Assembly (NCBI RefSeq): GCF_030116705.1
Contig: NZ_JAOTIK010000001.1
Span: 6,228,501 to 6,292,500, forward strand
Length of the DNA stretch: 64,000 nt
Direction: 5' to 3'
Source: Streptomyces sp. ML-6
GTDB lineage: Bacteria; Actinomycetota; Actinomycetes; Streptomycetales; Streptomycetaceae
A model generated the notes under the pieces. The model worked only from the letters and a program-made list of their open reading frames with translations. It was not told the DNA's origin and ran no database searches. Made by a program: the position numbers and the translations under genes. Of this stretch, positions 12,784-33,261 are shown in pieces (position 1 is the stretch's first letter; each line of letters opens with the position of its first letter).

Positions 12784-14036
12784 CCGGGCCGCTCGCCGAG
12801 GTCCTCGACGGCCAGCGCCGGGCCGACCTGCAACGCGCCGCGCGTGCCCTGCTGAAGGAGCCGCTGCTCACCGCCGACGGGCCGTACGCCGACGAGTTCC
12901 GGCTGGTGCGACGGCACCAGGCCGAACTGCGCGAGTGGTTCGAGCGCAACGTCGGCTGGACGCTGCGCACGGACGCCGACGCGGCGCGGCTGCGCAAGGC
13001 GCCGGGCACCCTCACCGATCCCACGCATCCGGCCCGGGAGGCCACCCGGACCGCCCTGCCCTTCACCAGGCGCCGTTACGTCCTGCTCTGCCTGGCGCTG
13101 GCCGCGCTGGAACGGGGCGAGGCCCAGGTGGCGCTCGGCCGGCTCGCCGAACAGATCGTGCTGGCCGCCGCCGATCCCGAACTCGTCGCCGCCGGGATCG
13201 TGTTCACCCTGGAGCGGCGCGACGAACGCCTCGACCTCGCGGCCGTCGTACGACTGCTGCTGCGGGCCGGGGTGCTGCGGCGGGTGGCGGGCGACGAGGA
13301 GGCGTACATCAGCGGGTCCGGGGACGCGCTGTACGACGTACGGCGGCGGGTGCTGGCCGGGATGCCGGCGTCCCTGCGCGGCCCCTCCCTCGTCGAGGCC
13401 GAGGAGTTCGAGGAACGGCTGGTGGAGATGACGGCGCGGACCGCCCTCGACAGCGACGAGCTGAGGTTCCGTGCGATCCGGTGGAAGCTGACCCGCCTCC
13501 TCCTCGACGACCCGGTGCTCTACTACGACGACCTCACCGACGACGAACTGGCCTACCTCACCCGGCAGCGCGGCTTCATCACCGCGCGGATCGGCGAACT
13601 GACCGGGCTGGTACCCGAGGTGCGCGCCGAGGGCGTCGCCATGGTGGACCCCCTGGACGACCTCACCGACGTACGCATGCCGGAACAGGGCACGCACGGG
13701 CACGTCACCCTCCTGCTCGCCCAGTACCTGGCGGCAGCCGGGCGGCCCGTCGCACCGGCGGAGCTGGCGCGGCGGGTGCGCGAACTCGCCGCCGAACACG
13801 GCGGGTTCTGGGCGAAGTCGGCCAGGGAGCCGGGCGCCGAACCCGTACTGGTGGCACAGGCCCTGGAGAAACTGGTGGCCCTGGGGCTCGCCGAGCACAC
13901 CGAGCAGGGCGTCGTGCCGCGGCCGGCCCTCGCGCGGTACGCGGTCGGCGAAGCAGTCGTCAGGGAACCGGCCGCACCACCGAACCGTCCGCACCCTCCC
14001 ACCGCACCGCACACGAACGTGAAGGACGAAAGGTGA
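12780..14036 (+). CDS. jetB: Wadjet type II subunit JetB (TIGR02678 / DUF2398)
   Basis: A 418-residue protein with a GTG start overlapping the jetA stop. It is rich in helices and winged-helix-like stretches (for example RLAEQIVLAAADPELVAAG), ends in a Pro/His-rich tail, and has LLLDDPVLYYDDL and LAYLTRQRGFI typical of DUF2398. It takes the place of the MukE/KITE-like subunit, which binds the kleisin and DNA near the SMC heads. Its own stop overlaps the jetC start by the same GTGA device (14033-14036). Much longer open frames in the same stretch are out-of-frame shadows. Confidence 0.87.
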   Translation: MTGPLAEVLDGQRRADLQRAARALLKEPLLTADGPYADEFRLVRRHQAELREWFERNVGWTLRTDADAARLRKAPGTLTDPTHPAREATRTALPFTRRRYVLLCLALAALERGEAQVALGRLAEQIVLAAADPELVAAGIVFTLERRDERLDLAAVVRLLLRAGVLRRVAGDEEAYISGSGDALYDVRRRVLAGMPASLRGPSLVEAEEFEERLVEMTARTALDSDELRFRAIRWKLTRLLLDDPVLYYDDLTDDELAYLTRQRGFITARIGELTGLVPEVRAEGVAMVDPLDDLTDVRMPEQGTHGHVTLLLAQYLAAAGRPVAPAELARRVRELAAEHGGFWAKSAREPGAEPVLVAQALEKLVALGLAEHTEQGVVPRPALARYAVGEAVVREPAAPPNRPHPPTAPHTNVKDER

Positions 14037-17000
14037 ACCGCGCCTCGACCGGGCTCCCGGCCCCCGCCCTCCCCAGCCCCGCCCCCGGCCGGTGGCGGCC
14101 CCTGCGCATCGGGCTCGTCGACCTGTTCCACTACGACGTCGAGGAGTTCTGGTTCCGCGACGGCCGGCTGCTGCTGCGCGGCAACAACGGCACCGGGAAG
14201 TCCAAGGTGCTCGCCCTCACCCTGCCGTTCCTGCTGGACGGGGACCTCTCCGCCCGCCGGGTCGAGCCCGACGGCGACCCGGGCAAGCGGATGGAGTGGA
14301 ACCTCCTGCTGGGCGGTGAGCACCCGCATCCCGAACGGCTCGGCTACACCTGGATCGAGTTCGGACGGCTCGACGGGACCACCGGCGAACCCCATTTCCG
14401 CACCCTGCTCTGCGGGCTGAAGGCCGTCACCGGACGCGGGATCGCCCGCCACTGGTTCGCGGTGACCGACCAGCGGATCGGCGCCGGACTCGACCTGCTC
14501 GACGCGACCGGCACGGCTCTGTCCCGGGACCGGCTCGCGGAGGCCGTCGGCAGCCACGGCATGGTGTACGACACCGCGAAGACGTACCGCCGGGCGGTCG
14601 ACGAGGCCCTTTTCGGACTGGGGGAGCAGCGCTACGGCGCACTCGTCGACCTCCTCATCCAGCTGCGCCAGCCCCAGTTGTCCAAGCGCCCCAACGAGGC
14701 GGCTCTGTCCCGGGCGCTGACGGAGGCGCTGCCGCCGATGGACCAGGCGGTCGTCGCCGACGCGGCGGAGGCGTTCCGGTCGCTGGACGAGGAGAAGGAG
14801 CAGCTGCGGGCGGCGCGCGAGGCGGAGGAGGCGTCGTCGGGGTTCCTCGACCACTACCGGCGCTACGCCCGCATCGCCTCCCGGCGCCGGGCCCGGCTGC
14901 CCCGCACCGAACACGCCCGCTACGAGCACATCCAGCGGGAACTCCTCAAGGCGCAGGACGCCCGCGAACAGGCCGTGGCGGACCGGGCGAAGGCGCAGGA
15001 ACGGGCGGCGTCCCTCGACGAGCACGCGGCGCGGCTGGGCGCGCAGGACGCGGCCCTGCGGACCGGGCCCGGGATGCGCGACGCCCGCGCGCTCGACCAG
15101 GCGGCGGTCGACGCCTCCCGCACGGCGGCCGACCTGACGCGCGCCGAGGCGGACCGGCGGACGGCCGACCAGGCGCACACCCGGGCCCTGGGCCGGCTCG
15201 ACACCGCGACGAACCGGCTGACCGCCGCGCAGGAGGCCCTGGACGACGTCCTGGGCCGGGTGACCGGGAGCGCCGCGGCGGCCCGGCTCGACGCCCCGCG
15301 CACCGAGGGCGCCCCCGTCACCGCGCTGCGCCGCGCGGCGGACGAGGCGACGGCGAGCCGACGGCGTGCCGTCGCCCATGTGGAGGCCCTCGCCGAGCGC
15401 GCCGAACGGGCCGGGGAGGCGCACAACGCCGCCCGGCTGCGCGCCGACGAGGCCGACGAGGAGGTGGTGCACGCCGGAGAACTGCTGGCCCGGGCCGAGG
15501 AGGAAACCGCCCAGGCCGGGCGGGCGCTCGTCGCCGCCGTCCGGGAGCACCTGTCCGGGTGCGCGGAGCTGCGGCCGGCCGGGCTGCCGGGAGTGCTCGA
15601 CGCGGTGCAGGAGTGGGCGGGCCATCTGAACGGCCCCCATCCGGCGCTCGTCGCCGCGGCCGGAACCCACCGTTCCCTCGCCGCCGGCCTGGCCGACCGG
15701 GCCGCCGCCCTGACCCACCGCGAAACGGCGACGGCGGAACGGCAGCGGCTGGTGGCCCAGGAACTGACCGCGCTCGAAGCGGGCGGACAGCGGGGCCCCT
15801 CCGCCCCGTACACCCGCACCCCCGATGTCCGGACCCAAGGCGCCGGGGCCCCGCTGTGGCGACTGGTCGACTTCCGCCCGCACGTCACCGGGGCCGAACG
15901 CGCCGGACTGGAGGCCGCCCTGGAGGCGTCGGGGCTCCTCGACGCCTGGGTGCGGCCGGACGGTTCCGCGGTCGCGGCGAACGGGCACGACGTGCTCCTC
16001 TCGCCCGTGGACGCGCCCGGCGGGAACGGCCTCGACCAGGTGCTGTGCCCGGCGGTCGACCACGCCGACGCGGGGGCCGCAGCCGTGGGGGAACGGACGG
16101 TCCAGCACCTGCTGGCCTCGATCGGGCTGGCGGGCATCGGGTCGGCGGGCGGGAACGGGGTCGGGCCGGCGGGCATCGGGTCGGCGGGCGGGAACGGGGT
16201 CGGGCCGGCGGAGGACGCCCGGTGGGCCGGGGCCCACGGCACCTGGGTCGCCACGGACGGGAGCTTCCGCGTCGGCGCGCTGACCGGGAGCTGGGCCAAG
16301 GACAGCGCCCAGTACGTGGGGGAGGGCGCGCGGGAACAGGCGCGCCGCACCCGGATCGCCGAACTGCACGTCGAACGGGAGAAGTTGGAGGCGGAGCGGG
16401 AGCGGCTGGCCGGGGAGCTGCGCGCGGTGGCGGGGCGCCGCGAGGTGCTCGACGCCGAACTCGCGGCCGTACCCGGCGACGACGAGCTGCGCCACGCGCA
16501 CGCCCGGGTCACCGCCGCGACCGACGCGGTCCGGCGGGCCCGTGCCCGGCAGCGGGAGCGGGCCGCCGAACTCGACGGGGCGGCCGGGGAAGCCGAGCGC
16601 AGAGCGGCCGAACTCGACGAGACGGCCACCGCCCTGCACCTCCCCGCCGACCGGGAGGCACTGGCCGTCGTGCGCCAGGCACTCGCCGATCACACCGCCC
16701 ACCTCGCGGAGCTGTGGCCGGCCCTGCGCGAGCGCACGGACGCCGAGCACGCGGTCACCGGCGACCGGGCCGAGACCGAGCGGGCCGAACTCCGCGCCCT
16801 CGAACTCGCGGAACGCGCGGCGGAGGCGGCCCGCCTGGCCGCCTCCGCGGACGAACACCTGCGCACGCTCCGCTCCACCGTCGGCGCCGCCGTCGCCGAA
16901 CTCCAGCGGCGGCTGGAGGAGACCGCGACCGCCGCCCGCGCCTGCGCGGCCGAACAGCAGCGGGCCCAGGCGGACATCCGCGACGCGGACCGGCGGGCCG

Positions 17001-18400
17001 GGCACGCCGAGGGACGCATCGAACGGCTCGAGGAGGACGTCACGGACGCCACCGCCGCGCGCGGACGCGCCGTCGAGGCGCTCCAGCGGTTCGTCTCGAC
17101 CGGGCTGCTCGCCGTCGCCCTCCCCGACGTCGCCGTACCGGACGACGACGGCGGCACGTGGGCGGCGACCCCCGCGGTGAACCTCGCCCGTGCCGTCGAG
17201 TCCCGGCTTTCCTCCGTCGACGATTCGGACGCGGCCTGGGAACGCGTCCAGAAGCGGCTGAGCGAGGAGTTGGGCCGGCTCCAGGACGCACTCTCCCGGC
17301 ACGGACACACCGCGACGGCCCGTCCGGGCGAGGACGGCATGCGGGTCGACATCGTCTACCAGGGCCGGCGGCGCGCCGTGCCCGAACTCGCCGAGGCCCT
17401 GGCCGCCGAGGTCACCGAACTGACCCGCCTCCTGTCGGCGCACGAACGCGAGATCCTGGAGACCCATCTGATCACCGAGGTCGCCGGGACGCTCCAGGAA
17501 CTGATCGGGGCCGCCGAACGCCGGGTGCGCGCCATGAACCGGGAGCTGGAGGAACGCCCGACCTCGACGGGCATGAAGCTGCGCCTGGTGTGGCGGGCCT
17601 CCCGCCGGGCCCCGCAGGGGCTGGCCCAGGCCCGGGAACGGCTGCGTCAGTCGGCCGACGCCTGGTCGCCGCAGGACCGGGCGGCGGTCGGGGTGTTCCT
17701 CCAGGAGCAGATCGCCCGCCGCCAGGCCGACGACAGCACGGGCAGCTGGCAGGAGGACCTCACCGCCGCCCTCGACTACCGGGCGTGGCACGAGTTCGGC
17801 GTCGAACGGCACCAGCACGGCAAGTGGGTGCCCGCCACCGGGCCCGCCTCCGGCGGCGAACGCGTCCTGGCGGCGTCCGTACCGCTCTTCGCCGCCGCGT
17901 CCTCCCACTACGCGAGCGCGGGCGGCGCGCACGCCCCGCGACTGGTCACCCTGGACGAGGCGTTCGCGGGGGTGGACGACGACTCCCGCGCCAAGTGCCT
18001 CGGCCTGCTGCGCGCCTTCGACCTCGACGTCGTCATGACCAGCGAACGGGAATGGGCCTGCTACCCGCAGGTGCCCGGCATCGCCATCGCGCAGCTCTCC
18101 CGCGTCGACGACATCGACGCCGTCCTGGTGACCCGTTGGGAATGGGACGGCTTCGACCGGCGGCGCGGCCCCGAGCCGGGAACCGCATCGCGCACGACGA
18201 CGGTGCCCCTCCAGTCCGACGGCCGCGACCGGAGGGGCCGGGACGCCGAGGGAACGGCCCCCGGGACGGCGCGGACTGGTGGCACGCAGGGGCCGAGCGA
18301 GTCCGGCGCCGCGCGGGGCACGGGAGCCACCGGCACGCAGGAACCGGGCGGAACCACCGCCGCGCAGGACGAGGGAGAGCAGGAGTCCCTGTGGGGGTGA
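14033..18400 (+). CDS. jetC: Wadjet type II SMC-like ATPase JetC (TIGR02680)
   Basis: A 1455-residue SMC/MukB-like motor. The Walker A loop GNNGTGKS is at residues 50-57, the ABC signature SGGERVL starts at 1273, and Walker B is RLVTLDEAF with D1308-E1309. Long Ala/Glu/Arg-rich coiled coils run on each side of a globular hinge at about residues 605-770 (from APLWRLVDFRPH). ATP-driven loop extrusion by such complexes lets them recognise small circular DNA, which JetD then cuts. The hinge holds a perfect 39-bp tandem duplication. After about residue 1375 the chain is a disordered Gly/Thr/Arg tail. The GTG start overlaps the jetB stop; AAAGG precedes it. Confidence 0.93.
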   Translation: MNRASTGLPAPALPSPAPGRWRPLRIGLVDLFHYDVEEFWFRDGRLLLRGNNGTGKSKVLALTLPFLLDGDLSARRVEPDGDPGKRMEWNLLLGGEHPHPERLGYTWIEFGRLDGTTGEPHFRTLLCGLKAVTGRGIARHWFAVTDQRIGAGLDLLDATGTALSRDRLAEAVGSHGMVYDTAKTYRRAVDEALFGLGEQRYGALVDLLIQLRQPQLSKRPNEAALSRALTEALPPMDQAVVADAAEAFRSLDEEKEQLRAAREAEEASSGFLDHYRRYARIASRRRARLPRTEHARYEHIQRELLKAQDAREQAVADRAKAQERAASLDEHAARLGAQDAALRTGPGMRDARALDQAAVDASRTAADLTRAEADRRTADQAHTRALGRLDTATNRLTAAQEALDDVLGRVTGSAAAARLDAPRTEGAPVTALRRAADEATASRRRAVAHVEALAERAERAGEAHNAARLRADEADEEVVHAGELLARAEEETAQAGRALVAAVREHLSGCAELRPAGLPGVLDAVQEWAGHLNGPHPALVAAAGTHRSLAAGLADRAAALTHRETATAERQRLVAQELTALEAGGQRGPSAPYTRTPDVRTQGAGAPLWRLVDFRPHVTGAERAGLEAALEASGLLDAWVRPDGSAVAANGHDVLLSPVDAPGGNGLDQVLCPAVDHADAGAAAVGERTVQHLLASIGLAGIGSAGGNGVGPAGIGSAGGNGVGPAEDARWAGAHGTWVATDGSFRVGALTGSWAKDSAQYVGEGAREQARRTRIAELHVEREKLEAERERLAGELRAVAGRREVLDAELAAVPGDDELRHAHARVTAATDAVRRARARQRERAAELDGAAGEAERRAAELDETATALHLPADREALAVVRQALADHTAHLAELWPALRERTDAEHAVTGDRAETERAELRALELAERAAEAARLAASADEHLRTLRSTVGAAVAELQRRLEETATAARACAAEQQRAQADIRDADRRAGHAEGRIERLEEDVTDATAARGRAVEALQRFVSTGLLAVALPDVAVPDDDGGTWAATPAVNLARAVESRLSSVDDSDAAWERVQKRLSEELGRLQDALSRHGHTATARPGEDGMRVDIVYQGRRRAVPELAEALAAEVTELTRLLSAHEREILETHLITEVAGTLQELIGAAERRVRAMNRELEERPTSTGMKLRLVWRASRRAPQGLAQARERLRQSADAWSPQDRAAVGVFLQEQIARRQADDSTGSWQEDLTAALDYRAWHEFGVERHQHGKWVPATGPASGGERVLAASVPLFAAASSHYASAGGAHAPRLVTLDEAFAGVDDDSRAKCLGLLRAFDLDVVMTSEREWACYPQVPGIAIAQLSRVDDIDAVLVTRWEWDGFDRRRGPEPGTASRTTTVPLQSDGRDRRGRDAEGTAPGTARTGGTQGPSESGAARGTGATGTQEPGGTTAAQDEGEQESLWG
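16129..16206 (+). repeat. 39-bp perfect tandem duplication inside jetC
   Basis: Units 16129-16167 and 16168-16206 are identical and in frame, encoding the 13-residue sequence AGIGSAGGNGVGP twice at about residues 699-725. They form a Gly-rich loop in the hinge domain, so length change would lengthen a loop without shifting frame. Confidence 0.9.
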
Positions 18401-19713
18401 ACCCTCCCGGCCGGACCGACACGGATCGCTCCGACGCCGACCACCCCGGCCGCTCCGACGCCGACCACCCCGGTCAGCCCGACGCCGACCGTCTCGGCCG
18501 GCTGCTCGGCGACCCCGGCCTCGCCTGGCTCCTGGAACGTGCCCGCCGCCGGATGGCCGCCGGCCGGCCCCTCACCGGCACGGTCACCCTGGCCCGCCCC
18601 GACGAACTCCAACGGGAGGCCGCCGAACGCCTGCTGGGGCGGGCGCCCGGCGCGGGTCGCTCCCTGACGGTACGCCTCGACGCGGTGGACGCGGTGCTGC
18701 GCCGGTCCGGGGCCGGCCCCGACGGGCTGGAGGCCGCGGTGGTGGCCCTGACCGGGCCCGTCGCCGTGCGCACGGAGGTGCGCGACCGGGAGGAACGGGC
18801 CTGGGAGGACGCGTACGCACCGTTCGACACCCTGGCCTTCGGGCTGGCCGACTGGGCGGAACGGGCCCGCGGGGACGGTCTCGTACGGCGGCTCGCACGT
18901 ACCCCGGAAGCCGCCGGCCCGCTGGTGGGCGCCGCCGTACGGGCGCTGCGCGCACTGCCCGCGGTTCCGCCGGTGTCACGGGCGACGTTCGCGGCCCGCC
19001 ACCTCTCCGGCGCGCACGCCCTGGACGAGGGAACCCCGCTCGCCGCCCTGGTCCTGTCGGGGCTGCGGGCCCTCACGGGTTTCCCGGACGGCTCCGGCGC
19101 CGAGTGGCAGCGGGAGGCCTGGGCGTCGGCGGGGCTGCTCAGGGACGACGTGTCGTCGACCGTCCTGACCCTCAACCTGCGGGGGACACCGGCCCTCGAC
19201 TGGGCGGCCGACGAGGGGGAGCCCGCCGTCCTGACGCTGCGTTCGCTCGCCCGGCACGCCCCGAGCGGCGCCCTCCCGGGAACGGGGACCGTGTACGTCT
19301 GCGAGAACCCGGCCGTCCTGTCCGCCGCCGCCGACGCCTTCGGCCCGGCGTGCCCGCCCATGGTGTGCCTCCAGGGGCAGCCCTCGGCCGCCGCGCTCGC
19401 CCTGCTGCGCGGCCTGTCCGGGAGGGGAGCCGGGTTCCTCCACCACGGCGACTTCGACTGGGGCGGGATGCGCATCGCCGCGACGCTGGGGCGCGGTGTC
19501 GCGTGGCGGCCCTGGCGCTTCGGGGCGGCCGACTACCTGGCCGCCCTGGCCCGGGTGACGGAGCCGCAGCGGCTGACCGGCGCACCCGTCGCCACCCCGT
19601 GGGACCCGGACCTGGCCGGCGCCCTCGCCGAGCACGGAATCCGGGTCGAGGAGGAGGCCGTGCTCGACGATCTGCTCTCGGACCTGGGGGAACAGGCCCG
19701 CCGCGGCGGATGA
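18397..19713 (+). CDS. jetD: Wadjet type II nuclease subunit JetD (TIGR02679 / DUF2399)
   Basis: A 438-residue protein whose C-terminal half is a Toprim-like DUF2399 domain related to topoisomerase VI/Spo11. The metal-binding acidic residues are visible: E303 in VYVCENPAVL and the D352-F-D354 pair in HHGDFDWGGMRI. In Wadjet this subunit cleaves the plasmid DNA gathered by JetABC. GTG 18397 overlaps the jetC stop as GTGA, the same device used at both earlier junctions; an in-frame GTG at 18391 with AGGAG 5 nt upstream is the alternative. The first 30 residues carry a short RSDADHPG repeat. The gene converges on cbiO, with 24 bp between the stops. Confidence 0.9.
   Translation: MNPPGRTDTDRSDADHPGRSDADHPGQPDADRLGRLLGDPGLAWLLERARRRMAAGRPLTGTVTLARPDELQREAAERLLGRAPGAGRSLTVRLDAVDAVLRRSGAGPDGLEAAVVALTGPVAVRTEVRDREERAWEDAYAPFDTLAFGLADWAERARGDGLVRRLARTPEAAGPLVGAAVRALRALPAVPPVSRATFAARHLSGAHALDEGTPLAALVLSGLRALTGFPDGSGAEWQREAWASAGLLRDDVSSTVLTLNLRGTPALDWAADEGEPAVLTLRSLARHAPSGALPGTGTVYVCENPAVLSAAADAFGPACPPMVCLQGQPSAAALALLRGLSGRGAGFLHHGDFDWGGMRIAATLGRGVAWRPWRFGAADYLAALARVTEPQRLTGAPVATPWDPDLAGALAEHGIRVEEEAVLDDLLSDLGEQARRGG
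18427..18474 (+). repeat. 24-bp tandem repeat at the start of jetD
   Basis: Two 24-bp units (18427-18450 and 18451-18474), identical except for the last base, encode RSDADHPG twice; a third degenerate copy encodes QPDAD. They lie before the conserved part of the protein, in a probably disordered leader. Confidence 0.75.
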
Positions 19714-24537: not shown

Positions 24538-25048
24538 ACCGGGTCCCGGTCCTGGTTCCGGCCCTGGTCCCGATTCCGGTTCCGGTTTCGGTTCCGTCGC
24601 GACTGTGCCGACGAGGGCGCCTCGCGGATCGGACGAGGGTTGCGGTGGAGTGACGGGAGAGTGGCCGACAGGTGTCTTCCGGAGGACGGTTGACCTGGTG
24701 AGGGCCCTTTCGAGGGTGCCTTCCGACATGAAGTCAACACACTTTCAGGCAATATAACCGGACCGGAGGGAGCTACCTTCCGTGCCTGCGCACTCGCTCC
24801 GAGCGATGATCGTGTGGCCTGGGTCACAACGTTCTTGACAGTCGTCGGGCGGGTGTCGAAAGCTCATGCATCATTGGTCTGGACCACGATGGGTGGGCGG
24901 GGTTCATGTTCGATTCGCCATGGGCTTCTGGTGCTGAAACTTCACTCATCAGGAGTGAACTCAGCTTCAGAGCATGGGAATTGACACATCATCAATTCTT
25001 TGCCGAAGTGTGTGTCCCGGTGCGTCGGCGTGCGGGCCTGGAGGGCTG
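24538..25048. other. Intergenic region with low-complexity stretch and two inverted repeats
   Basis: No gene is seen. 24541-24600 is a CCGGTTCCGG-type low-complexity run. The rest is unusually AT-rich for this genome. Two inverted repeats precede the ArsR-type gene: TTCACTC-ATCAG-GAGTGAA at 24941-24959, and GAATTGA (24978-24984) with TCAATTC (24992-24998) around a 7-bp spacer. The second contains TTGACA (24981-24986), a good -35 hexamer, and is a likely site for the downstream regulator. Another TTGACA lies at 24835-24840. Confidence 0.55.
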
Positions 25049-25996
25049 ATGGACCGACAGCAGCCCGACGTAAGACTGGCGTTGTGCGATCTGTGGCAGG
25101 CATTCGGCGCCGTCGCGCTGTTGACCCGCTATGGCCCCGACGCCCCCTGGCCCCATCGCTCCTGGGCCCGCGAGGCGCACGGGATGCTGACGCCGCGCCT
25201 GAGGTCCGTGGTCGCCCTGGCCCGGCGGCGGGGGCGTGTCCCCTCGTTCCTGGGGACGGGCATCGCCTCGCGGCGGGCGGGGATCACCGAGGGGCTGGAC
25301 GACCTGGCGCGCACCCCGGCCGCCCCGGTCCGCGACGAGATCGCCCGGGAGTACCCGGCGGCCGTCGAGGATCCCCCGATCGCCGCGCTGATCCGTGACC
25401 CGGAGAGTCAACTCCGTTACCTGGCAGCCGATTTAGCGAACTTCTGGCGGGTCGCGGTCGAGCCGCGCGAGGCAGGCCTGGCGCGCTGTCTGGAGGAGGA
25501 GATCCTCTTCCGCTCGCGCACCCTGGCGATGAGCGGGGGAGCGGCGCTCCTCCGCGAACTGGGGCTGCCGCTCGAACGCACCGACGGCACGGGCCGCTTG
25601 ACCGCCGTACCGATGATGTTCGCGGACGGCACCCACTGGTGGTCGGTCGCCGGCGGCCGGACCGTGGTCTCCTTCGCGGCGCGGGGAGCGGGGCTCCTGC
25701 ACACCGGTCCGAAGCGGGAGGGTGCCGCGCAGGACCGGCGCGAGGACCGCCTGGCGATCCTGCTGGGCCGGGGGCGCGCCTCGGTCGTACGGGAACTGGC
25801 CGAACCGATCACCACCTCCGCGCTCGCCGACCACCTGGGGCTCGCCGCGAGCACGGTCTCCCAGCACCTCTCGGCACTCGTCTCGGCCGGTGTGGTGCAA
25901 CGCCACCGGGCCGGTACGCGCGTCCTGTACGAGCTGAACCGTTCGGGCGTGACGCTGACACAGTGTCTGATGAGCCACCAGGCATCACAGGGCTGA
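25049..25996 (+). CDS. ArsR-type winged-helix regulator with N-terminal DUF5937-like domain
   Basis: A 315-residue regulator. The DNA-binding domain is C-terminal at about residues 230-305 (ALADHLGLAASTVSQHLSAL), typical ArsR/SmtB winged helix. The N-terminal 220 residues resemble the DUF5937 domain of a large Streptomyces group of such regulators, with ALIRDPESQLRYLAADLANF. No cysteine metal site is visible, so metal sensing is unlikely. ATG 25049 with GGAGGG is preferred over the ATG at 24974, which lies immediately before the GAATTGA/TCAATTC operator-like repeat. The gene ends in a strong terminator, so it is a separate unit from the operon that starts at 26737, although it could control it. 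Confidence 0.78.
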   Translation: MDRQQPDVRLALCDLWQAFGAVALLTRYGPDAPWPHRSWAREAHGMLTPRLRSVVALARRRGRVPSFLGTGIASRRAGITEGLDDLARTPAAPVRDEIAREYPAAVEDPPIAALIRDPESQLRYLAADLANFWRVAVEPREAGLARCLEEEILFRSRTLAMSGGAALLRELGLPLERTDGTGRLTAVPMMFADGTHWWSVAGGRTVVSFAARGAGLLHTGPKREGAAQDRREDRLAILLGRGRASVVRELAEPITTSALADHLGLAASTVSQHLSALVSAGVVQRHRAGTRVLYELNRSGVTLTQCLMSHQASQG

Positions 25997-26115: not shown

Positions 26116-26736
26116 CGCGACGCCCGCCGACCCGGGGACGAGCATGACCGAAACACTGCGCCGCCTGGTGCCCAGAAGTGTGATGTCACCTCTCCCACCA
26201 GCGATTACGCCGGAAAACGAGGAACCGGTCCGGCATGCCGCCGAGGCGATTCGGCGTACGCCGAAAGGCTTGTCGGGTGCCCGGGACTCGACAAGAGTCG
26301 AGGCGGGAACTGCTCGACCGGAGGGCCGCGAAGACGTGAGCAAGGCACTGGGAAACGTTCGTTTCCTGGAATCCGACCCGCCCGCAGGACCGAGCGCGAA
26401 CCACCACACCGACAGAACCGACGGCACCGCCCCGACCCATCGGACTGGCAGGACCGTCGGCCACCGCCCTTGAAGCACAACGCGACGCCACCCGCTCCAC
26501 CGCCTCACGACCCGTCCGCCGCACCGGACGCACGAGGCCGGTGACCGGGCCGGCCCGTCGCCCGGACAACCCGCACCACACCCGTCCCGCGGCCCGAAGC
26601 GCCGTACCGGCGCCGTTCGACGACGACGGCGCCGAGGCCGTCACCGGCACCCACCGAGGTGGAGCGCCCGGACCCGTACCGCAGGGGGAGCGGTCGGTCC
26701 GCCCAGCCACGAAGAACCGAGCCCTGGAGTGAACGC
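26116..26736 (+). promoter_or_regulatory. Upstream region of the five-gene operon, with a 16-bp palindrome
   Basis: About 620 bp without a convincing gene. TTCGGCGTACGCCGAA at 26250-26265 is a perfect 16-bp palindrome, a good operator candidate. CTCGAC-AAGA-GTCGAG at 26287-26302 can form a short hairpin just after it. Further on the sequence is rich in CCGACC-like simple sequence. Open frames here encode Thr/Arg-rich strings and are not credible. A long leader or a regulator site for the biosynthetic operon is the likely content. Confidence 0.5.
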
Positions 26737-27801
26737 ATGACGACGCCCGACTCCTACCTGTACCGATCCCCCTCGCAACGCCCGTACTTCAGCTCGGACG
26801 GCGAGTCCTACCTGGCACAGACACCGCTGAGGGACATCCGGAAGTCGCGGGAACTGCGGGTGCTCTCCGAGGCGGACTTCGAGTTCTGGCAGACCTACGG
26901 CTACGTCATCGTGCGGGAGGCGATCCCGGCCGCCGCGGCGCGCCGCCTGCTCGACTTCACCTGGGACTTCCAGGGTCTCGACCCGGCCCGGCCCGAGACC
27001 TGGTACGAGGACCGCCCCTTCCGGGACGACCTGGACCGGGAACTGCACGTCTACGGATTCGTCGAGGCGTACCACCACCAGCTCATCTGGGACAGCCGGC
27101 AGGCGCAGCGCGTCTACGACGCCTTCGTCGACGTGTGGGACTGCGAAGAGCTGTGGGTGACCCTGGACCGGCTCAACCTCAACCCGCCCAACGTCAAGAA
27201 CCGGGACCGGGCGCTCATCGCGCCCACCGACAAGGGCTTCGACATCGAGCTCCACTGGGACGTCGACACCACGCTCGGCGTCCTGCCCCAGCGGGTCCAG
27301 GGCATCATCGCGCTGAACGACACCCGGCCGGAGGCGGGCGGCTTCCAGTGCTCGCCGGAACTCTTCCGCCGGTTCGAGGAGTGGAAGACCGGGCAGCCCG
27401 CGGACCGGGACCCGATCAGGCCGGACACCGACCGCGCGGAGTTCCCGGTCATCCGCCCGGAGCTGCGGGCCGGGGACCTGCTGATCTGGAACGGCCTGCT
27501 CGCGCACGGGGTGGCCCGCAACACCTCGCGGGACGAGGTCCGCGCCGTCCAGTACCTCTCGATGATGCCCGCGCTGGAGTCGCACGACGAACTGCGGCGC
27601 TCCCGGATCGATTCGTGGCGCAACCTCGCCACCCCGGAATGGAACAGGACGCTCGTCGGCGACATCACGAAGCACGAATCCCTCAGGTACGGCACTGCCA
27701 CGCTGAACGACCTCGGCGAGAAGCTGCTGGGACTGAAGTCCTGGCACGGGCAGGACGACGAGCGGTCGACCGGAGAGCTGGCATGCGCCGAATCTGTCTG
27801 A
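26737..27801 (+). CDS. Phytanoyl-CoA dioxygenase (PhyH)-family 2-oxoglutarate oxygenase
   Basis: A 354-residue Fe(II)/2-oxoglutarate-dependent oxygenase. The iron ligands are readable as H173-x-D175 in LHWDVD and the distal H257 in LLAHGVARN, followed by an arginine strand (RAVQYLSM) for 2-oxoglutarate. The N-terminal RELRVLSEADFEFWQTYGYV is typical of PhyH-type hydroxylases of bacterial secondary metabolism. It probably hydroxylates, desaturates or rearranges a small molecule such as an amino acid. GGAG lies 8 nt before the ATG. It is the first gene of a five-gene operon and overlaps the next gene by 19 bp. The substrate is unknown. Confidence 0.87.
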   Translation: MTTPDSYLYRSPSQRPYFSSDGESYLAQTPLRDIRKSRELRVLSEADFEFWQTYGYVIVREAIPAAAARRLLDFTWDFQGLDPARPETWYEDRPFRDDLDRELHVYGFVEAYHHQLIWDSRQAQRVYDAFVDVWDCEELWVTLDRLNLNPPNVKNRDRALIAPTDKGFDIELHWDVDTTLGVLPQRVQGIIALNDTRPEAGGFQCSPELFRRFEEWKTGQPADRDPIRPDTDRAEFPVIRPELRAGDLLIWNGLLAHGVARNTSRDEVRAVQYLSMMPALESHDELRRSRIDSWRNLATPEWNRTLVGDITKHESLRYGTATLNDLGEKLLGLKSWHGQDDERSTGELACAESV

Positions 27802-29177
27802 CCCTTCCGACGAACAGGGCCTGCGCCGCGACGATCTCGGCCGTCGGCGAGGAGGCGGACCACGCGGCCGAACACTTCGGCGTCGAGGTGCACCTGCTGA
27901 TCCTGGACTCCTCGAACGAACAGGAATTCGCGGAGCACGCCCGGGTCGTCGCCGGGGCGCGCCGGGCCCCGCACGTGGTCGTGCACCACCTCGGCGAGGC
28001 GGAGCAGCGTGACTTCCTGCGGCGGGTGATCCGGCGCTCCGGCGTCGCCAAGCCCGACCTGATGCTCGGCCTCATGCTCCCGGACGGCGTCTCCTACGGC
28101 GCCTGCACCAACCGGGCGTTCCTGATCGCCGCCGCGCTCGGCTGCCGGTCGGTGCACCGCCGGGACTCCGACAGCACCTACCAGGTCCTGGACGGCGAGA
28201 CCGTCTTCCCCATCCACCACGAACTCGCCTCGCTCGGCAAGGCCGCGGCCGACGCGGCGGCCGGGGTGTCCGAGACCGTGCTCGACCCCGGGCACGCGCA
28301 CAAACCGGTGGTGATGGTGGGCAGTTCCTTCGTCGGCGAGCTGTCGGTGGACATCGGCGAGATCGCCGAGCTGGACCAGGACGTCTACCACGACGTCGTC
28401 GGTCTGTGGGCCCCCGGACACTGGTCGGACGAGCAGAAGAGGGAACTCGTCGAGGAGTCCTTCAAGGGCGCCGGCACCGACCCGTTCGTCCGCGACCACT
28501 CGGTCCTCACCCATGTCGATCCGATGCGGGTCGACATGTGCAACATCAGCTTCCTGGACGAGGTGTACGAACGGGTGCCGCTGCCGCCCGCGACCGACAC
28601 CATCGGCAGCGACTACTTCCTCATGCACCTGGTGCACGACAGCACGCTGCCCGGGGTCCTGCACAACCGCAACATCGTGAACTTCTACACCGCGGAACGC
28701 CGGACCGACGCCGGGTTCATGGCCTACCAGCTGCGGTTCGCGAAGTTCTTCCTCTCCATGCTCTACTTCAACTTCATCTACGAGAAGATGGCGGAGGCCG
28801 GTCCCGCACTGCTCAACGACCGGCACCGCGTCCGGCCGGCGGCGGTGGCCGAGCTGGCCAGACGGAGCGCCCTGGTGGACCGGGCGGAGAACGTGCACCG
28901 ACTGGACGTCCTCGACCGCTCCTACCGGAAACTGGGCGGCAGGTACGCCGAGTTCGCCGAGGTCCTGGCGGCAGGCGGCCGACAGCTGCTCGAAGAGGCC
29001 CGTGCGGACATCGAGGACTTCGCGCTGCTGACCGAGTCCTGGTCATCCCTGGTACGGGCGAGCGGCTCCACCGGCCTCCACCCCTCGGACGGAGCCACCG
29101 GCCTCCACCCCTCGGACGGGTCCACCGACCCCCATCCGTCGGACGGGTCCACCGACCCCCACCCGTCGGACCGGTAG
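27783..29177 (+). CDS. DUF6271-like protein, possible GT-A-type transferase
   Basis: A 464-residue protein that I cannot assign firmly; it most resembles DUF6271 proteins. The N-terminal half looks like a nucleotide-sugar-binding fold: strands VEVHLLILDSS and PHVVVHHLG, CTNRAFLIAAALGC, then RRDSDSTY, where D128-S-D130 resembles the DxD metal motif of GT-A glycosyltransferases. The middle contains HKPVVMVGSSFVGELSVDIG; the C-terminal third is helical. The last 40 residues are four 9-residue repeats (GSTGLHPSD type). It overlaps the dioxygenase gene by 19 bp and precedes the decarboxylase by 16 bp, so all should act in one pathway. A glycosyl or nucleotidyl transfer role is inference. Confidence 0.6.
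   Translation: MRRICLTLPTNRACAATISAVGEEADHAAEHFGVEVHLLILDSSNEQEFAEHARVVAGARRAPHVVVHHLGEAEQRDFLRRVIRRSGVAKPDLMLGLMLPDGVSYGACTNRAFLIAAALGCRSVHRRDSDSTYQVLDGETVFPIHHELASLGKAAADAAAGVSETVLDPGHAHKPVVMVGSSFVGELSVDIGEIAELDQDVYHDVVGLWAPGHWSDEQKRELVEESFKGAGTDPFVRDHSVLTHVDPMRVDMCNISFLDEVYERVPLPPATDTIGSDYFLMHLVHDSTLPGVLHNRNIVNFYTAERRTDAGFMAYQLRFAKFFLSMLYFNFIYEKMAEAGPALLNDRHRVRPAAVAELARRSALVDRAENVHRLDVLDRSYRKLGGRYAEFAEVLAAGGRQLLEEARADIEDFALLTESWSSLVRASGSTGLHPSDGATGLHPSDGSTDPHPSDGSTDPHPSDR
29064..29171 (+). repeat. Four 27-bp tandem repeats at the 3' end of the DUF6271-like gene
   Basis: Units at 29064, 29091, 29118 and 29145, each 27 bp and in frame, encode GSTGLHPSD, GATGLHPSD and GSTDPHPSD twice. The stop codon TAG follows two codons later. 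Being a multiple of three, copy number could change without loss of frame. Confidence 0.9.
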
Positions 29178-29193
29178 GCGGAACCGGACCATC

Positions 29194-30363
29194 ATGCACC
29201 TGAACGCACACATGCGCGCCGCGCTGACGGCGGCCGACGACGACCGGATCATCTTCGACCTCACCGGCATAGCGGCGCAGTACGAAGCACTGCTGCGCGA
29301 ACTGCCGGGAGTCTCCGTCCGCTTCGCCATGAAGGCCTGCCCGGTGGACGAGGTCCTGGCCTGTCTGGCGGCGCGGGGCTCCGGCTTCGACGCGGCGAGC
29401 CCCAACGAGGTGGCACAGGCCCTGCGCACCGGGGTGCCGGCCGACCGGATCCACTACGGCAACACCATCAAGTCCGACCGGAACATCGCCGACGCCCACC
29501 GCATGGGGATCACGACCTTCGCGACCGACAGCCTGGAGGACGTGGCGGCGATCGCGGCCCACGCCCCCGGCGCCCGGGTCTTCTGCAGACTGGCCACCAG
29601 CGGGGCCGGGGCACTCTGGGGCCTCAGCCGGAAGTTCGGCTGCTCGGCCGCCGACGCGGTGCTGGTGATGGAGGCGGCGCGGGCGGCCGGTCTGACCCCG
29701 GCCGGCCTGTCCGTCCACGTCGGCTCCCAGCAGATGACCTCGCAGGCGTGGCAGGAGGTCTTCGAGTCCCTCGCCGACCTGCTCGCGGTGCTGAACCGGC
29801 GGGGCATCCTCCCGGACCACCTCAACCTCGGCGGCGGACTGCCCGCACTGGGCTACCTGGACAGCAGGGGCCGGCCCCTGGACCCGCCGGTGGACAAGAT
29901 CTTCGCCGTGATCCGCGAGGGAACACAACACCTCGCGGCGGTGTCGGAGGCGCCGCTGGACTTCCTCATGGAACCGGGCCGCCACCTGGTGGCCGATCAC
30001 GGCGCGATCAGGGCGCACGTGGCCCGGCTGTCGTCCCGGCAGCAGATCGACGGCGCACGCGAGAACTGGCTGTACCTGAGCTGCGGGAAGTTCAACGGCC
30101 TCTACGAGATGGACCAGTTGCAGTACCGGCTGCTGTTCCCCTCGCACGACGACGGCGACCACGTACCGGCCGTTGTCGCGGGCCCCACCTGCGACAGCGA
30201 CGACGCCTTCGCCCACGAGCACAACCGCGTTCCGGTGCCCCGGGAAGTCGCCTCGGGGGACCCGGTATGGATCCTCTCCAGCGGCGCCTACGCGACCGGA
30301 TACATGACGCGGGGATTCAACGGCTTCGATCCGCTTCCGTACGCGTGGACGCGCGGCGACTAG
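29194..30363 (+). CDS. Fold type III PLP decarboxylase (ornithine/lysine type)
   Basis: A 389-residue enzyme of the alanine-racemase-fold decarboxylases. The PLP lysine is K47 in RFAMKACP. Other marks are HVGSQQ, the glycine loop NLGGGLP, EPGRHLVAD for phosphate binding, and the catalytic cysteine C333 in GPTCDSDD, which is shared between the two active sites of the dimer. The GPTCDS form is typical of enzymes that decarboxylate ornithine, lysine or related basic amino acids. The product would be a diamine or substituted amine. It is the third gene of the operon, 12 bp before the acetyltransferase. Whether the true substrate is first hydroxylated by the dioxygenase is unknown. Confidence 0.9.
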   Translation: MHLNAHMRAALTAADDDRIIFDLTGIAAQYEALLRELPGVSVRFAMKACPVDEVLACLAARGSGFDAASPNEVAQALRTGVPADRIHYGNTIKSDRNIADAHRMGITTFATDSLEDVAAIAAHAPGARVFCRLATSGAGALWGLSRKFGCSAADAVLVMEAARAAGLTPAGLSVHVGSQQMTSQAWQEVFESLADLLAVLNRRGILPDHLNLGGGLPALGYLDSRGRPLDPPVDKIFAVIREGTQHLAAVSEAPLDFLMEPGRHLVADHGAIRAHVARLSSRQQIDGARENWLYLSCGKFNGLYEMDQLQYRLLFPSHDDGDHVPAVVAGPTCDSDDAFAHEHNRVPVPREVASGDPVWILSSGAYATGYMTRGFNGFDPLPYAWTRGD

Positions 30364-30375
30364 AGGGACCACCAC

Positions 30376-30933
30376 GTGCGCATACGGCACATATCCAATG
30401 ACGACTGGGACGGCATCACCGCACTGGAGGCCGAGGAGTACACCGCCGACGGACTGTCGGAGGGCCGGGCCGCGCTGCGGTCCCGGGCCCACGCCTCACC
30501 GGCCACCTGCTTCGTCCTGGACCACGCCGGCCGGGTCGCGGGATACCTGCTGGCCCTGCCCTACCCGAAGTTCGAGTACCCCGACCTGGACCGGAAGGAG
30601 GGCCTCGTCTTCCACTCGCGCAACCTGCACCTGCACGACCTCGTCGTGGCCCCGGAGTTCCGCGGCGGGGGACTCGCGAAGAACCTCCTGCGCCACTTCA
30701 CGGCGACGGCGGGAGCGAAGGGGTACGAGGAGGTGTCCCTGGTCGCCGTCCGCGGCAGCGACACCTTCTGGGCGGCCCACGGATACCGGGCCCACCGGGA
30801 GGTCGAGCCGCCGGCGAGCTACGGACCGGGCGCGGTGTACATGTCCAGGGCGGTACCGGGAGTCCGGGCCGGAAGAACGAACCTCGCCGACCTGCCGGCA
30901 CACGGGGTACCTCCGAAAGACGAAGTGGGCTGA
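30376..30933 (+). CDS. GNAT-family N-acyltransferase
   Basis: A 185-residue GNAT protein starting at GTG 30376 with GAGGGACC upstream. The strand-helix LHLHDLVVAPEFRGGGLAKN holds the acyl-CoA pyrophosphate loop (R-x-x-G-x-A form), and FWAAHGYRAHREVEPP is the usual beta6-beta7 end. It should acylate, probably acetylate, a primary amine. In context the amine may be that made by the neighbouring decarboxylase, for self-protection or as a biosynthetic step. The last 25 residues are an Arg/Pro/Gly-rich tail. The spacing to the next gene is 6 bp. Confidence 0.85.
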   Translation: MRIRHISNDDWDGITALEAEEYTADGLSEGRAALRSRAHASPATCFVLDHAGRVAGYLLALPYPKFEYPDLDRKEGLVFHSRNLHLHDLVVAPEFRGGGLAKNLLRHFTATAGAKGYEEVSLVAVRGSDTFWAAHGYRAHREVEPPASYGPGAVYMSRAVPGVRAGRTNLADLPAHGVPPKDEVG

Positions 30934-30939
30934 TTGCAC

Positions 30940-32106
30940 ATGTCTGGCGTTCGTGACGAATTCCACCGCGCGCAACTGGCGATCGGGGCGCTGTTCTGCT
31001 TCCTCGGGTTCCAGTACGCGACCTGGGCCTCCCGGCTCCCCGCGATCAAGGCGGAACTCGACCTGACCGAAGCGGAACTGGGCCTGCTGCTGATGGCTTG
31101 CGGGGCGGGTGCGGCGGCCTCGTTCCCCCTCGTCGCGGTCCTGATGAGGCGGATGGGATCGCGCCGGCTCGCACTCGTGTCGGTCGGCTTCCTGAGCCTG
31201 CTCCTGCCGGCGCTCGCCGTGGCGCCCAACTACCCGGTCGCACTCCTGGTCATCTGCTGCGACGGCGTCGCCGTCGGGAGTCTGAACGTCGCGATGAACG
31301 CTCAGGGGGCGGCGCTCGAAGCCGCCCACGAGCGCACCGCCATGGCCAGGCTGCACGCCGTGTTCAGCGCCGGTTCCCTGCTCGCGGCCCTGCTCGCCTC
31401 CGGGGTGAACGCGCTGACCCCAAAGGTCGCGGTGCACTTCGCGGTGGCCGCCGTCCTTCTTCTGCTGCTGGTCGGACTGACCTGGAAGGGCCTGCTGGTG
31501 GAGGACCCGCCGGCCCCGGAGCAGCAGGCCCCGAAGAAGAGCCGCCGCAGGCTCACCGTGCCGTCCCGCGTGACGATCTGGATGGGCTGCGCGATGGTCT
31601 TCGGCACCGTGACCGAGGGCGCCATGAACGACTGGTCGGCGCTCTACATGGAGGACGTGGTCGGAGCGGCGTCGGAACTGGCGCCCCTGGGCATCGCGGT
31701 CGTCTCGGGGATGATGGTGCTGGCCCGCCTCTTCGCCGACGGCTGGCGCAGCCGCTGGGGCGACGGACGGATCGTCCGCGTCGGCAGCGCGGTGGCCGGT
31801 ACCGGGCTGGCGCTCGCCCTGCTGGCCGGTGGCGTCGTGCCGACGCTGATCGGGTTCGCCTGCGTCGGACTGGGCGTCGCGGCCGTCACCCCGTGCATCT
31901 ACGTGGCGGCGGCGGGGCAGGGCACGGACGCGCTGGCCCTGGTCGCCGCCATGGGGACGACCGGTCTGCTGGCCGGGCCCGCGCTGATCGGCTTCATAGC
32001 GGAAGCCGGCAGCCTCGTCTGGGGCATGGGGGCGGTGGCCGCCTCGGCGATCCTGGTCTCCCTGTGCGCCACCCGGATCCGCTGGCCGCAGCCCGCCGAG
32101 TCCTGA
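30940..32106 (+). CDS. MFS exporter of the five-gene operon
   Basis: A 388-residue membrane protein with about 12 helices, of the fucose-permease-like/YbjJ MFS subgroup: helix 1 FCFLGFQYATWASRLPAIKA is characteristic. MNDWSALYMEDVVGA in the middle is also typical of this group. ATG 30940 is preferred over TTG 30934. It directly follows the acyltransferase and is followed by an array of hairpin repeats that probably end the transcript. The likely role is export of the operon product; import of a precursor is the alternative. Confidence 0.85.
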   Translation: MSGVRDEFHRAQLAIGALFCFLGFQYATWASRLPAIKAELDLTEAELGLLLMACGAGAAASFPLVAVLMRRMGSRRLALVSVGFLSLLLPALAVAPNYPVALLVICCDGVAVGSLNVAMNAQGAALEAAHERTAMARLHAVFSAGSLLAALLASGVNALTPKVAVHFAVAAVLLLLLVGLTWKGLLVEDPPAPEQQAPKKSRRRLTVPSRVTIWMGCAMVFGTVTEGAMNDWSALYMEDVVGAASELAPLGIAVVSGMMVLARLFADGWRSRWGDGRIVRVGSAVAGTGLALALLAGGVVPTLIGFACVGLGVAAVTPCIYVAAAGQGTDALALVAAMGTTGLLAGPALIGFIAEAGSLVWGMGAVAASAILVSLCATRIRWPQPAES

Positions 32107-32125
32107 CACCGCCCTGCGCCCGGGG

Positions 32126-32259
32126 CCGTTCCCCGGGCGCCGGGAACAGCCCCTTGCCCCTGGTCCGTTCCCCGGGCGCCGGGAACAGCCCCTTGCCCCT
32201 GGTCCGTTCCCCGGGCGCCGGGAACAGCCCCTTGCCCCTGGTCCGTTCCCCGGGCGCCG
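32126..32259 (+). repeat. 39-bp tandem repeat array, each unit with a hairpin
   Basis: Three identical 39-bp units (32126-32164, 32165-32203, 32204-32242) and a partial fourth (32243-32259) begin 20 bp after the MFS stop. Each contains GTTCCCCGGGCGCCGGGAAC, which folds into an 8-bp stem with one bulged C and a 3-nt loop. The array may act as a stacked terminator for the five-gene operon. The rest of 32260-32541 is GC-rich, without a gene. Confidence 0.85.
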
Positions 32260-32541: not shown

Positions 32542-33261
32542 GTGATCGAGAAGATTCTGCCGTCGGGGGTGGCAGTGGCAGAGGTGTTCTCCGATCTGCC
32601 CGACGCCGTGCTGATGCCCGCCGAGGAGGAACTGGTCCACCGCTACGTGGAGAAGCGGAGGCTGGAGTTCACCACGACGCGCCACTGCGCGCGCCGCGCG
32701 CTCGGGGAGCTGGGCATCGCGCCCGTCCCCATCCTCAAGGGCGAACGCGGCGCCCCGGTCTGGCCGCAGGGCGTGGTCGGCAGCATGACCCACTGCGTGG
32801 GCTACCGTGCCGCCGTCGTGGCGCGCGACGCGGACGTGCTCACCATCGGCATCGACGCCGAGCACAACGCGCCGCTCCCCGACGACGTGCACGACAACAT
32901 CGCGCTGACGACGGAACAGGAGCGCGAGCACGAGCTGCGCCGACGGAACCCGGGCATCCACTGGGACCGGTTGCTGTTCAGCGCGAAGGAGAGCGTCTAC
33001 AAGGCGTGGTTCCCGCTGACCCGCCGTTGGCTGGGTTTCGAGGAGGCCGACATCGTGCTCCACCCGGACGGCGGCTTCACCGCCGAGATCCTGGCCTCCC
33101 GGACGGCGGCGAGGAGCGGTACGAACCCCCGGGCGCCCTTCGGCGAGGTCCCGGAGCCGTCGGCCGGACCGGCGGAGGACCCCTCGGAGTTCCGCGGCCG
33201 GTGGCTGGCCGCGGACGGCCTTCTGGTGACCGCGATCGTCGTGGCGGAGCCGGCCGCCTGA
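32542..33261 (+). CDS. Sfp-type 4'-phosphopantetheinyl transferase
   Basis: A 239-residue enzyme that transfers phosphopantetheine from CoA to carrier-protein serines of polyketide, peptide or fatty acid synthases. The metal-binding motif IGIDAEHN has D105 and E107, and the second motif FSAKESVYKAW has K149, E150 and K154. It begins with an EntD-like leader (LPSGVAVAEVFSDLPDAVLM). GTG 32542 has AAGGGGAG upstream. The C-terminal 50 residues contain a Pro/Ser/Glu insertion. A terminator-like array separates it from the operon before it, and no carrier protein is in the window, so it probably serves synthases elsewhere in the genome. Confidence 0.92.
   Translation: MIEKILPSGVAVAEVFSDLPDAVLMPAEEELVHRYVEKRRLEFTTTRHCARRALGELGIAPVPILKGERGAPVWPQGVVGSMTHCVGYRAAVVARDADVLTIGIDAEHNAPLPDDVHDNIALTTEQEREHELRRRNPGIHWDRLLFSAKESVYKAWFPLTRRWLGFEEADIVLHPDGGFTAEILASRTAARSGTNPRAPFGEVPEPSAGPAEDPSEFRGRWLAADGLLVTAIVVAEPAA

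Follow-up and report, generated by a model that had tools for sequence, protein, structure and literature searches.

A putative DasR-controlled biosynthetic operon with a PhyH–DUF6271 core in Streptomyces

A five-gene operon in a 64-kb window from Streptomyces sp. ML-6 (the window being the whole stretch of DNA analysed) probably directs the synthesis and export of a small molecule, with a PhyH-family oxygenase and a DUF6271 protein as its core and with control by DasR. Our best guess at the product is an exported, hydroxylated, amino-acid-derived amide that carries a sugar or is made through one, under the control of N-acetylglucosamine (GlcNAc). As the first-pass annotation had observed, this form of the operon, with a decarboxylase and a GNAT acyltransferase, encodes no core synthase of the usual kind sought by genome-mining tools, and about three in 10 sampled Streptomyces genomes carry the PhyH–DUF6271 core. 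Operators for DasR and a neighbouring glycoside hydrolase family 3 (GH3) gene, present in most relatives, hint at the timing of its synthesis and at possible constituents of the molecule. The DasR link points to an inducing condition (GlcNAc or chitin), and Streptomyces coelicolor offers a promoter bound in vivo.

Conservation and exchangeable parts of the operon

The operon spans positions 26737–32106, with all five genes on the + strand. Its first gene (26737–27801; Pfam PhyH, 2.3e-09) encodes a PhyH-family Fe(II)/2-oxoglutarate (2OG) oxygenase and overlaps the DUF6271 gene (27783–29177; PF19787, 2.9e-238) by 19 bp. These are followed, after a 16-bp gap, by a fold type III pyridoxal phosphate (PLP) decarboxylase (29194–30363; Orn_Arg_deC_N, 2.2e-41), after 12 bp by a GNAT acyltransferase with a GTG start (30376–30933; Acetyltransf_1, 1.1e-12), and after 0–6 bp by a major facilitator superfamily (MFS) exporter that starts at 30934 (TTG) or 30940 (ATG) and ends at 32106 (MFS_1, 1.5e-25). 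The matches for the last two genes bear out the acyltransferase and exporter named in the first-pass annotation, although none of the five proteins reaches the cut-off of any NCBIfam model. What had been described as an unusual hairpin array at the end of the operon is a tandem repeat at 32119–32259 (+ strand; 39-bp unit, 3.6 copies, 98% matches) with an inverted repeat in each unit. It probably marks the end of the transcription unit; a terminator scan gave no flag on these positions.

A search of a species-level genome collection with DUF6271 returned 143 related places, of which the best 80 were kept, a choice favouring close relatives. All five genes (at least half of each query matched, all within 6 kb) were found in 72 of these 80 loci, and 71 also kept the same order and strand, so that the five families do co-occur and, given the overlap and short gaps in the window, the genes can be treated as one unit. 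In locus L024 all five genes are present with the MFS gene inverted. Among the loci without the full set, three end at a contig end (L048, L066 and L068), two carry a pair of ABC half-transporters upstream of PhyH and no MFS gene (L057 and L075), one has a short GNAT match (L064), one has no decarboxylase (L067) and one is of a second type described below (L079). No described cluster matching the operon was found in the openly licensed papers searched, in line with the earlier statement that no named pathway has this gene set. Openly licensed papers likewise contained no mention of DUF6271 and none of DasR together with phytanoyl-CoA dioxygenase, and no paper was found by gene name for SCO6031 or SCO6033–6037 (the compound form 'SCO6032-6033' escapes such a search).

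Of 392 Streptomyces genomes, 123 contain DUF6271, in a few cases only as a distant relative or a fragment; it was also detected in 89 of 293 genomes of an order sample and in 5 of 396 genomes of a phylum sample, all five of the latter being Streptomyces. Within a set of 101 Streptomyces genomes, PhyH orthologues (at least 68% identity) occurred in 32, the same 32 that carry a near DUF6271 relative; a 33rd genome with DUF6271 (G037) has merely a 27% relative, and genome G060 merely a 47% PhyH paralogue. The decarboxylase was found in 23 of the 101 at E 1e-40. Replicons other than the chromosome also carry these genes: Streptomyces cattleyicolor plasmid pSCAT has a GH3 gene and all five operon genes with a DasR operator (dre), and Streptomyces clavuligerus plasmids have a second-type locus and, separately, a PhyH–DUF6271 pair without the decarboxylase. 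A split transketolase follows the second-type locus of S. clavuligerus (L147, 4869–15650).

The decarboxylase adjoins DUF6271 in 21 of the 32 genomes (broken in G077, and in G073 on a contig with the end of DUF6271) and is truncated in G088. A second operon type, present in 10 of the 32, has a condensation-domain protein after DUF6271 in place of the decarboxylase and GNAT, along with a divergent set comprising a phosphopantetheinyl transferase (PPTase), an acyl carrier protein (ACP) and a class II aminoacyl-carrier ligase-like protein. In nine of these 10 genomes the next gene encodes a different MFS protein, which was not called in L138; DUF6271 itself was overlooked by the gene caller in L137, and each family name used here for the second type was taken from a single member. 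In the DUF6271 tree, built with a quick method, a single branch (SH-aLRT 99) sets apart the 12 second-type rows, which include one genome twice. The decarboxylase–GNAT pair was also found apart from PhyH and DUF6271 in genomes G016, G024 and G038, with similar neighbours that in G038 include a nonribosomal peptide synthetase (NRPS) gene (Pfam). Given the second type and the occurrence of this pair elsewhere, PhyH–DUF6271 is the operon core, and the amide-making part is exchangeable. Loci L132, L133 and L134 represent the pair without PhyH or DUF6271, that of L134 standing beside NRPS, ABC transporter, glutamine synthetase-like and acyl-CoA dehydrogenase genes.

DasR operators and the GH3 neighbour

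In 55 of 91 loci, the 450 bp before PhyH contain a dre core with at most two mismatches, compared with 0.7 expected from shuffles. Upstream sequence is identical within three pairs of loci; among distinct upstream sequences, 55 of 92 have a dre. Where more than 2.2 kb of upstream sequence was available (81 loci), a dre precedes 67 operons, directly upstream in 50 and upstream of a co-directional unit in 17. As a control, 449 windows upstream of other called genes were scanned and 12 had a dre; the 31 found in 1.07 Mb away from the upstream side of the operon correspond to about one expected in 81 windows. Two dre are present in each of the eight second-type loci scanned, and S. clavuligerus L147 has one. 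The published DasR regulon reports in vivo binding to the SCO6032–6033 intergenic region in samples from 24 h and 54 h, with a dre, cttggtctagtccatt, at -154/-278, and describes SCO6032 as a beta-N-acetylhexosaminidase (PMC4398421). The same 16-mer, cttggtctagtccatt, lies between GH3 and PhyH at -152/-280 in Streptomyces tendae (L062) and at -151/-279 in L074, from which we infer that SCO6033 is the PhyH gene of S. coelicolor. Together, the operators and this one published binding region make an ancestral DasR target a well-supported description of the operon.

Of the 80 loci, 73 have more than 2.2 kb upstream, and in 53 of these the next gene upstream of PhyH is a GH3 gene of the beta-N-acetylhexosaminidase type. 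It is divergent in 33 and co-directional in the rest, where many copies stand at the end of a das-like locus (GntR, binding protein, two permeases, GH3). The GH3 tree separates a DasD clade (22 rows) from a dedicated clade (40 rows, 33 divergent and seven co-directional). Loci L066 and L095 contain one GH3 of each clade, which suggests how the operon may have reached the das locus. A GH3 relative was found at E 1e-60 or better in every one of the 101 Streptomyces genomes (at just 43% in G001, which is incomplete), and a copy at least 65% identical to that of locus L007 is present in 13 of them, including 11 of the 32; by coordinates, it adjoins PhyH/DUF6271 in nine of those 11. The first-pass annotation had missed this regulatory and sugar context, made up of the operators for DasR, the adjoining GH3 gene and the second type with its ACP.

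The copy in the window belongs with L002–L005 to one clade (SH-aLRT 95) that has no GH3 and no dre less than 450 bp from PhyH. A dre-like element, ATTGGTCTGGACCACG (24873–24888, core 24875–24886 with one mismatch), nevertheless stands 99 bp before the gene for an ArsR-type winged-helix protein (24974–25996, + strand) and 1.86 kb before PhyH, and is the sole site with at most one mismatch in the window. The ArsR-like gene is upstream of PhyH in L002–L005 too, with a like dre site before it (its end is also seen in the short locus L107), and loss of the dre in this clade was therefore rejected. In the approximately 740 bp between the ArsR-like gene and PhyH is a palindrome, TTCGGCGTACGCCGAA (26250–26265), a candidate operator whose form TTCGGYGTACRCCGAA is present in five of six aligned upstream regions of the clade and imperfect in L004; the exact site has one match in the host genome. 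The host also encodes a DasR relative (71%), with DasD 3.6 kb on. A stricter dre pattern, TGGTCTAGWCCA, has one match in this genome, fewer than its backward control, and would miss the dre of the window. The latter may act on the operon with the ArsR-like protein as a candidate relay, the DasR signal perhaps being passed on by this protein and perhaps acting at the palindrome; a chain from DasR through the ArsR-like protein to the operon and simple co-transcription both fit. The position of the dre before the ArsR-like gene strengthens the regulatory part of the explanation; the overall likelihood assigned to it was kept unchanged.

Catalytic residues and the proposed pathway

Residue conservation was assessed in rows that we picked from the collected loci. 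The HxD...H facial triad of PhyH (H173, D175 and H257), from which a 2OG oxygenase had first been recognised, and the 2OG-binding R269 are invariant in 40 of 40 rows. A PhyH paralogue (44–47%) also occurs in a cluster common to L144 (5397–14953) and L145 (5340–15500), which in L144 encodes a radical SAM protein, a carbamoyltransferase, a pyridine nucleotide-disulphide oxidoreductase and a GDSL-type protein (Pfam).

The two aspartates of DUF6271 noted in the first-pass annotation as a DxD-like motif (D128-S129-D130) are kept in all 60 rows, four of which have only 24–28% identity to the window protein, and H294 is also invariant in these rows. A structure model has a GT-A fold, as the earlier suggestion of a comparison with such folds had anticipated, with an MtdL-type core and C-terminal helices; the best fold match is MtdL (311 residues), so that the closest likeness is to a nucleotide-sugar mutase and not just to transferases. 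From this comparison, D128-S-D130 and H294 would form the metal site, with D277 as a candidate base. MtdL, of family GT75, is described as a nucleoside diphosphate (NDP)-pyranose mutase with D109–D111 and H287, whose mechanism requires an autoglycosylated arginine, R159 (PMC9937993). That DUF6271 is likewise an NDP-sugar pyranose/furanose mutase, supplying a furanosyl donor rather than transferring a sugar, seems unlikely, if attractive on fold: residues 131–293 contain no invariant or nearly invariant arginine in the 60 rows (position judged by residue spacing), and no other recognisable sugar transferase is encoded in the operon (Pfam). The distant relatives at 24–28% identity (L087–L090) lie in contexts without PhyH, L087 and L088 having one common neighbourhood and L089 and L090 another. 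Two further features of DUF6271 were noted: a 27-bp repeat (4.2 copies, 29063–29175) gives the window copy an HPSDGST-type tail of low confidence, and in-frame TGA flags were rejected as signs of recoding, since the stops placed by tblastn in ten loci fall near residue 430, the natural C-terminus.

In the decarboxylase, the PLP lysine K47 and the Cys–Asp pair C333 and D334 are invariant in 22 of 22 rows, and among solved structures the closest are those of lysine/ornithine decarboxylases (2plj, 9.6e-40). The DDGxYG loop, whose acidic residue we take to be D332 of Trypanosoma brucei ornithine decarboxylase, holding the distal amine, is not conserved; HMMER alignments to 2plj, 5gjm and 1f3t place SxGKFNGL there, and its K299 is invariant in 22 of 22 rows. 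With the acidic loop residue absent and K299 invariant, the substrate may be other than plain ornithine or lysine. The earlier assignment as a basic-amino-acid decarboxylase thus keeps its fold and catalytic residues, whereas its substrate is placed in doubt.

Taken together, these features suggest a pathway in which DasR, a GlcNAc-responsive repressor, would control the operon, PhyH would hydroxylate an amino-acid-derived substrate, and DUF6271, using a nucleotide sugar and a metal ion, would attach or rearrange a sugar (a GlcNAc-type donor is the first guess). The decarboxylase and GNAT would convert the amino-acid end to an N-acyl amine, or, in the second type, the condensation enzyme would join an ACP-loaded amino acid. 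The MFS protein would export the product, and the GH3 enzyme, where present, might take the sugar off again for recycling or self-protection. The hydroxylated, acylated, maybe glycosylated and exported diamine first proposed retains its oxygenase, GNAT and exporter; a diamine is now one option among others. More tentatively, DUF6271 could be the first of a new family of nucleotide-sugar enzymes whose substrates are hydroxylated amino acids, in some cases bound to an ACP. With PhyH, it could produce glyco-amino-acid metabolites of a widespread class that has gone unrecognised, triggered by GlcNAc, exported, and degraded or tolerated via a dedicated beta-N-acetylhexosaminidase. If true, such metabolites would be made when chitin or cell-wall sugar is plentiful, and the work would give a function to DUF6271, a family with distant relatives even on honeybee lactobacillus plasmids.

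Several observations weigh against the proposal of a DasR-controlled biosynthetic operon. Of the 81 loci, 14 lack a dre under the set criterion; in nine of them a site lies at a greater distance, by a widening made after the fact (before the ArsR-like gene in L002–L005, at -459 to -665 in L006, L008, L011 and L097, and before the co-directional ABC genes in L075), and five have none even then (L012, L017, L057, L078 and L077, those of L077 being beyond another gene). The locus counts are not independent because neighbours share ancestry. In the window, the best site less than 450 bp upstream of PhyH has five mismatches, no GH3 adjoins the operon, and the host DasR and DasD genes are located away from it. 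GH3 is likewise missing from 20 of 73 loci and from the second-type stretches read. Of the 13 genomes with the dedicated GH3 type, two have no DUF6271, and in two of the other 11 the genes are not adjacent. On the DUF6271 tree, the das arrangement needs three changes and the divergent one seven. The PhyH model (pLDDT 54) is too poor for use, and the DUF6271 profile finds no relative in the PDB, including no GT75 chain at E up to 10 in a search that misses distant relatives. Its matches there, to TRAF6 (four rows) and to one designed protein, had E values of 0.37 or worse and were taken as chance.

Nagstatin-type compounds inhibit beta-N-acetylglucosaminidases, and the product could be an inhibitor of this kind, with the dedicated GH3 as an insensitive copy that sustains the use of chitobiose or muropeptides. 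We consider this quite improbable. A dedicated clade beside the operon (40 of 62 rows) in organisms that already have a GH3 relative, the intact KHFPGHGD motif in the GH3 copies read and control linked to chitin are all consistent with it; however, the adjoining GH3 in the das-locus form is DasD itself, GH3 is absent from the clade of the window and from the second-type stretches read, and no pathway paper was found in the openly licensed literature. It is more doubtful still that the product is a hydroxylated N-acyl polyamine without sugar, with DUF6271 doing another reaction and the GH3 link reflecting shared regulation only. The affinity of the decarboxylase to lysine/ornithine decarboxylases and the 20 loci without GH3 agree with such a product, but the DSD and histidine of a nucleotide-sugar fold are invariant throughout the 60 DUF6271 rows and the substrate loop of the decarboxylase is altered. 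Least probable is a role in amino-sugar catabolism or cell-wall recycling rather than specialised metabolism, which would suit the DasR operators and GH3/das neighbours but not the patchy distribution, the combination of oxygenase, decarboxylase, GNAT and exporter, the existence of an ACP/condensation version or the plasmid-borne copies in S. cattleyicolor and S. clavuligerus.

Neighbouring genes and comparison with known systems

The PPTase gene at 32542–33261 was rejected as an operon member, being downstream in just four of 80 loci (L002–L005); locus L032 has a 43% relative of it, far upstream. Elsewhere in the window, 10996–19713 holds a four-gene block (DUF2397, DUF2398, an SbcC-type ATPase and DUF3323/DUF2399) whose make-up we take to be that of Wadjet anti-plasmid defence.

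Set beside known systems, the operon decarboxylase shares with the lysine/ornithine decarboxylases 2plj and 5gjm the fold III family and the catalytic Lys, His, Glu and Cys–Asp, and differs in its substrate loop, where Lys299 is in place. DUF6271 resembles MtdL/GT75, compared at the enzyme level, in its DxD plus His (equivalence judged by order and spacing) and in a DxD-to-base spacing of 147 residues versus 149 in MtdL, whereas the base-to-His spacing is 17 versus 27, identity is 12–14% and there is no profile match. Mannosyl- and glucosyl-3-phosphoglycerate synthases, presumably GT55 and GT81, gave a clearly weaker fold match and no sequence match.

A distant DUF6271 relative was found on six plasmid records of Apilactobacillus kunkeei, which from their locus tags we read as pLPX. 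In the record read, the cluster on this 33-kb plasmid (OX335123.1; L146, 7498–17896) is alike in having a DUF6271 relative (Pfam 2.1e-27), an ACP, a class II aminoacyl ligase-like protein and an MFS gene, and unlike in the 20.9% identity of that relative, in its two ATP-grasp ligases, class IV aminotransferase and split transketolase, and in that no PhyH was seen. A split transketolase as constant partner was rejected, as among the collected loci it was matched only here and in L147. The A. kunkeei plasmid paper describes a 33-kb pLPX by its LPxTG gene, and its passages on this plasmid leave the DUF6271 cluster unmentioned. The operon also resembles the SCO6032–6033 target of the DasR regulon, with its identical dre 16-mer and nearly identical spacing in L062 and L074 and a GH3 neighbour corresponding to SCO6032. 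It differs in that the published account of this target names the GH3 gene and gives no role to the operon opposite (PMC4398421), and in that the dre of the window's clade precedes the ArsR-like gene.

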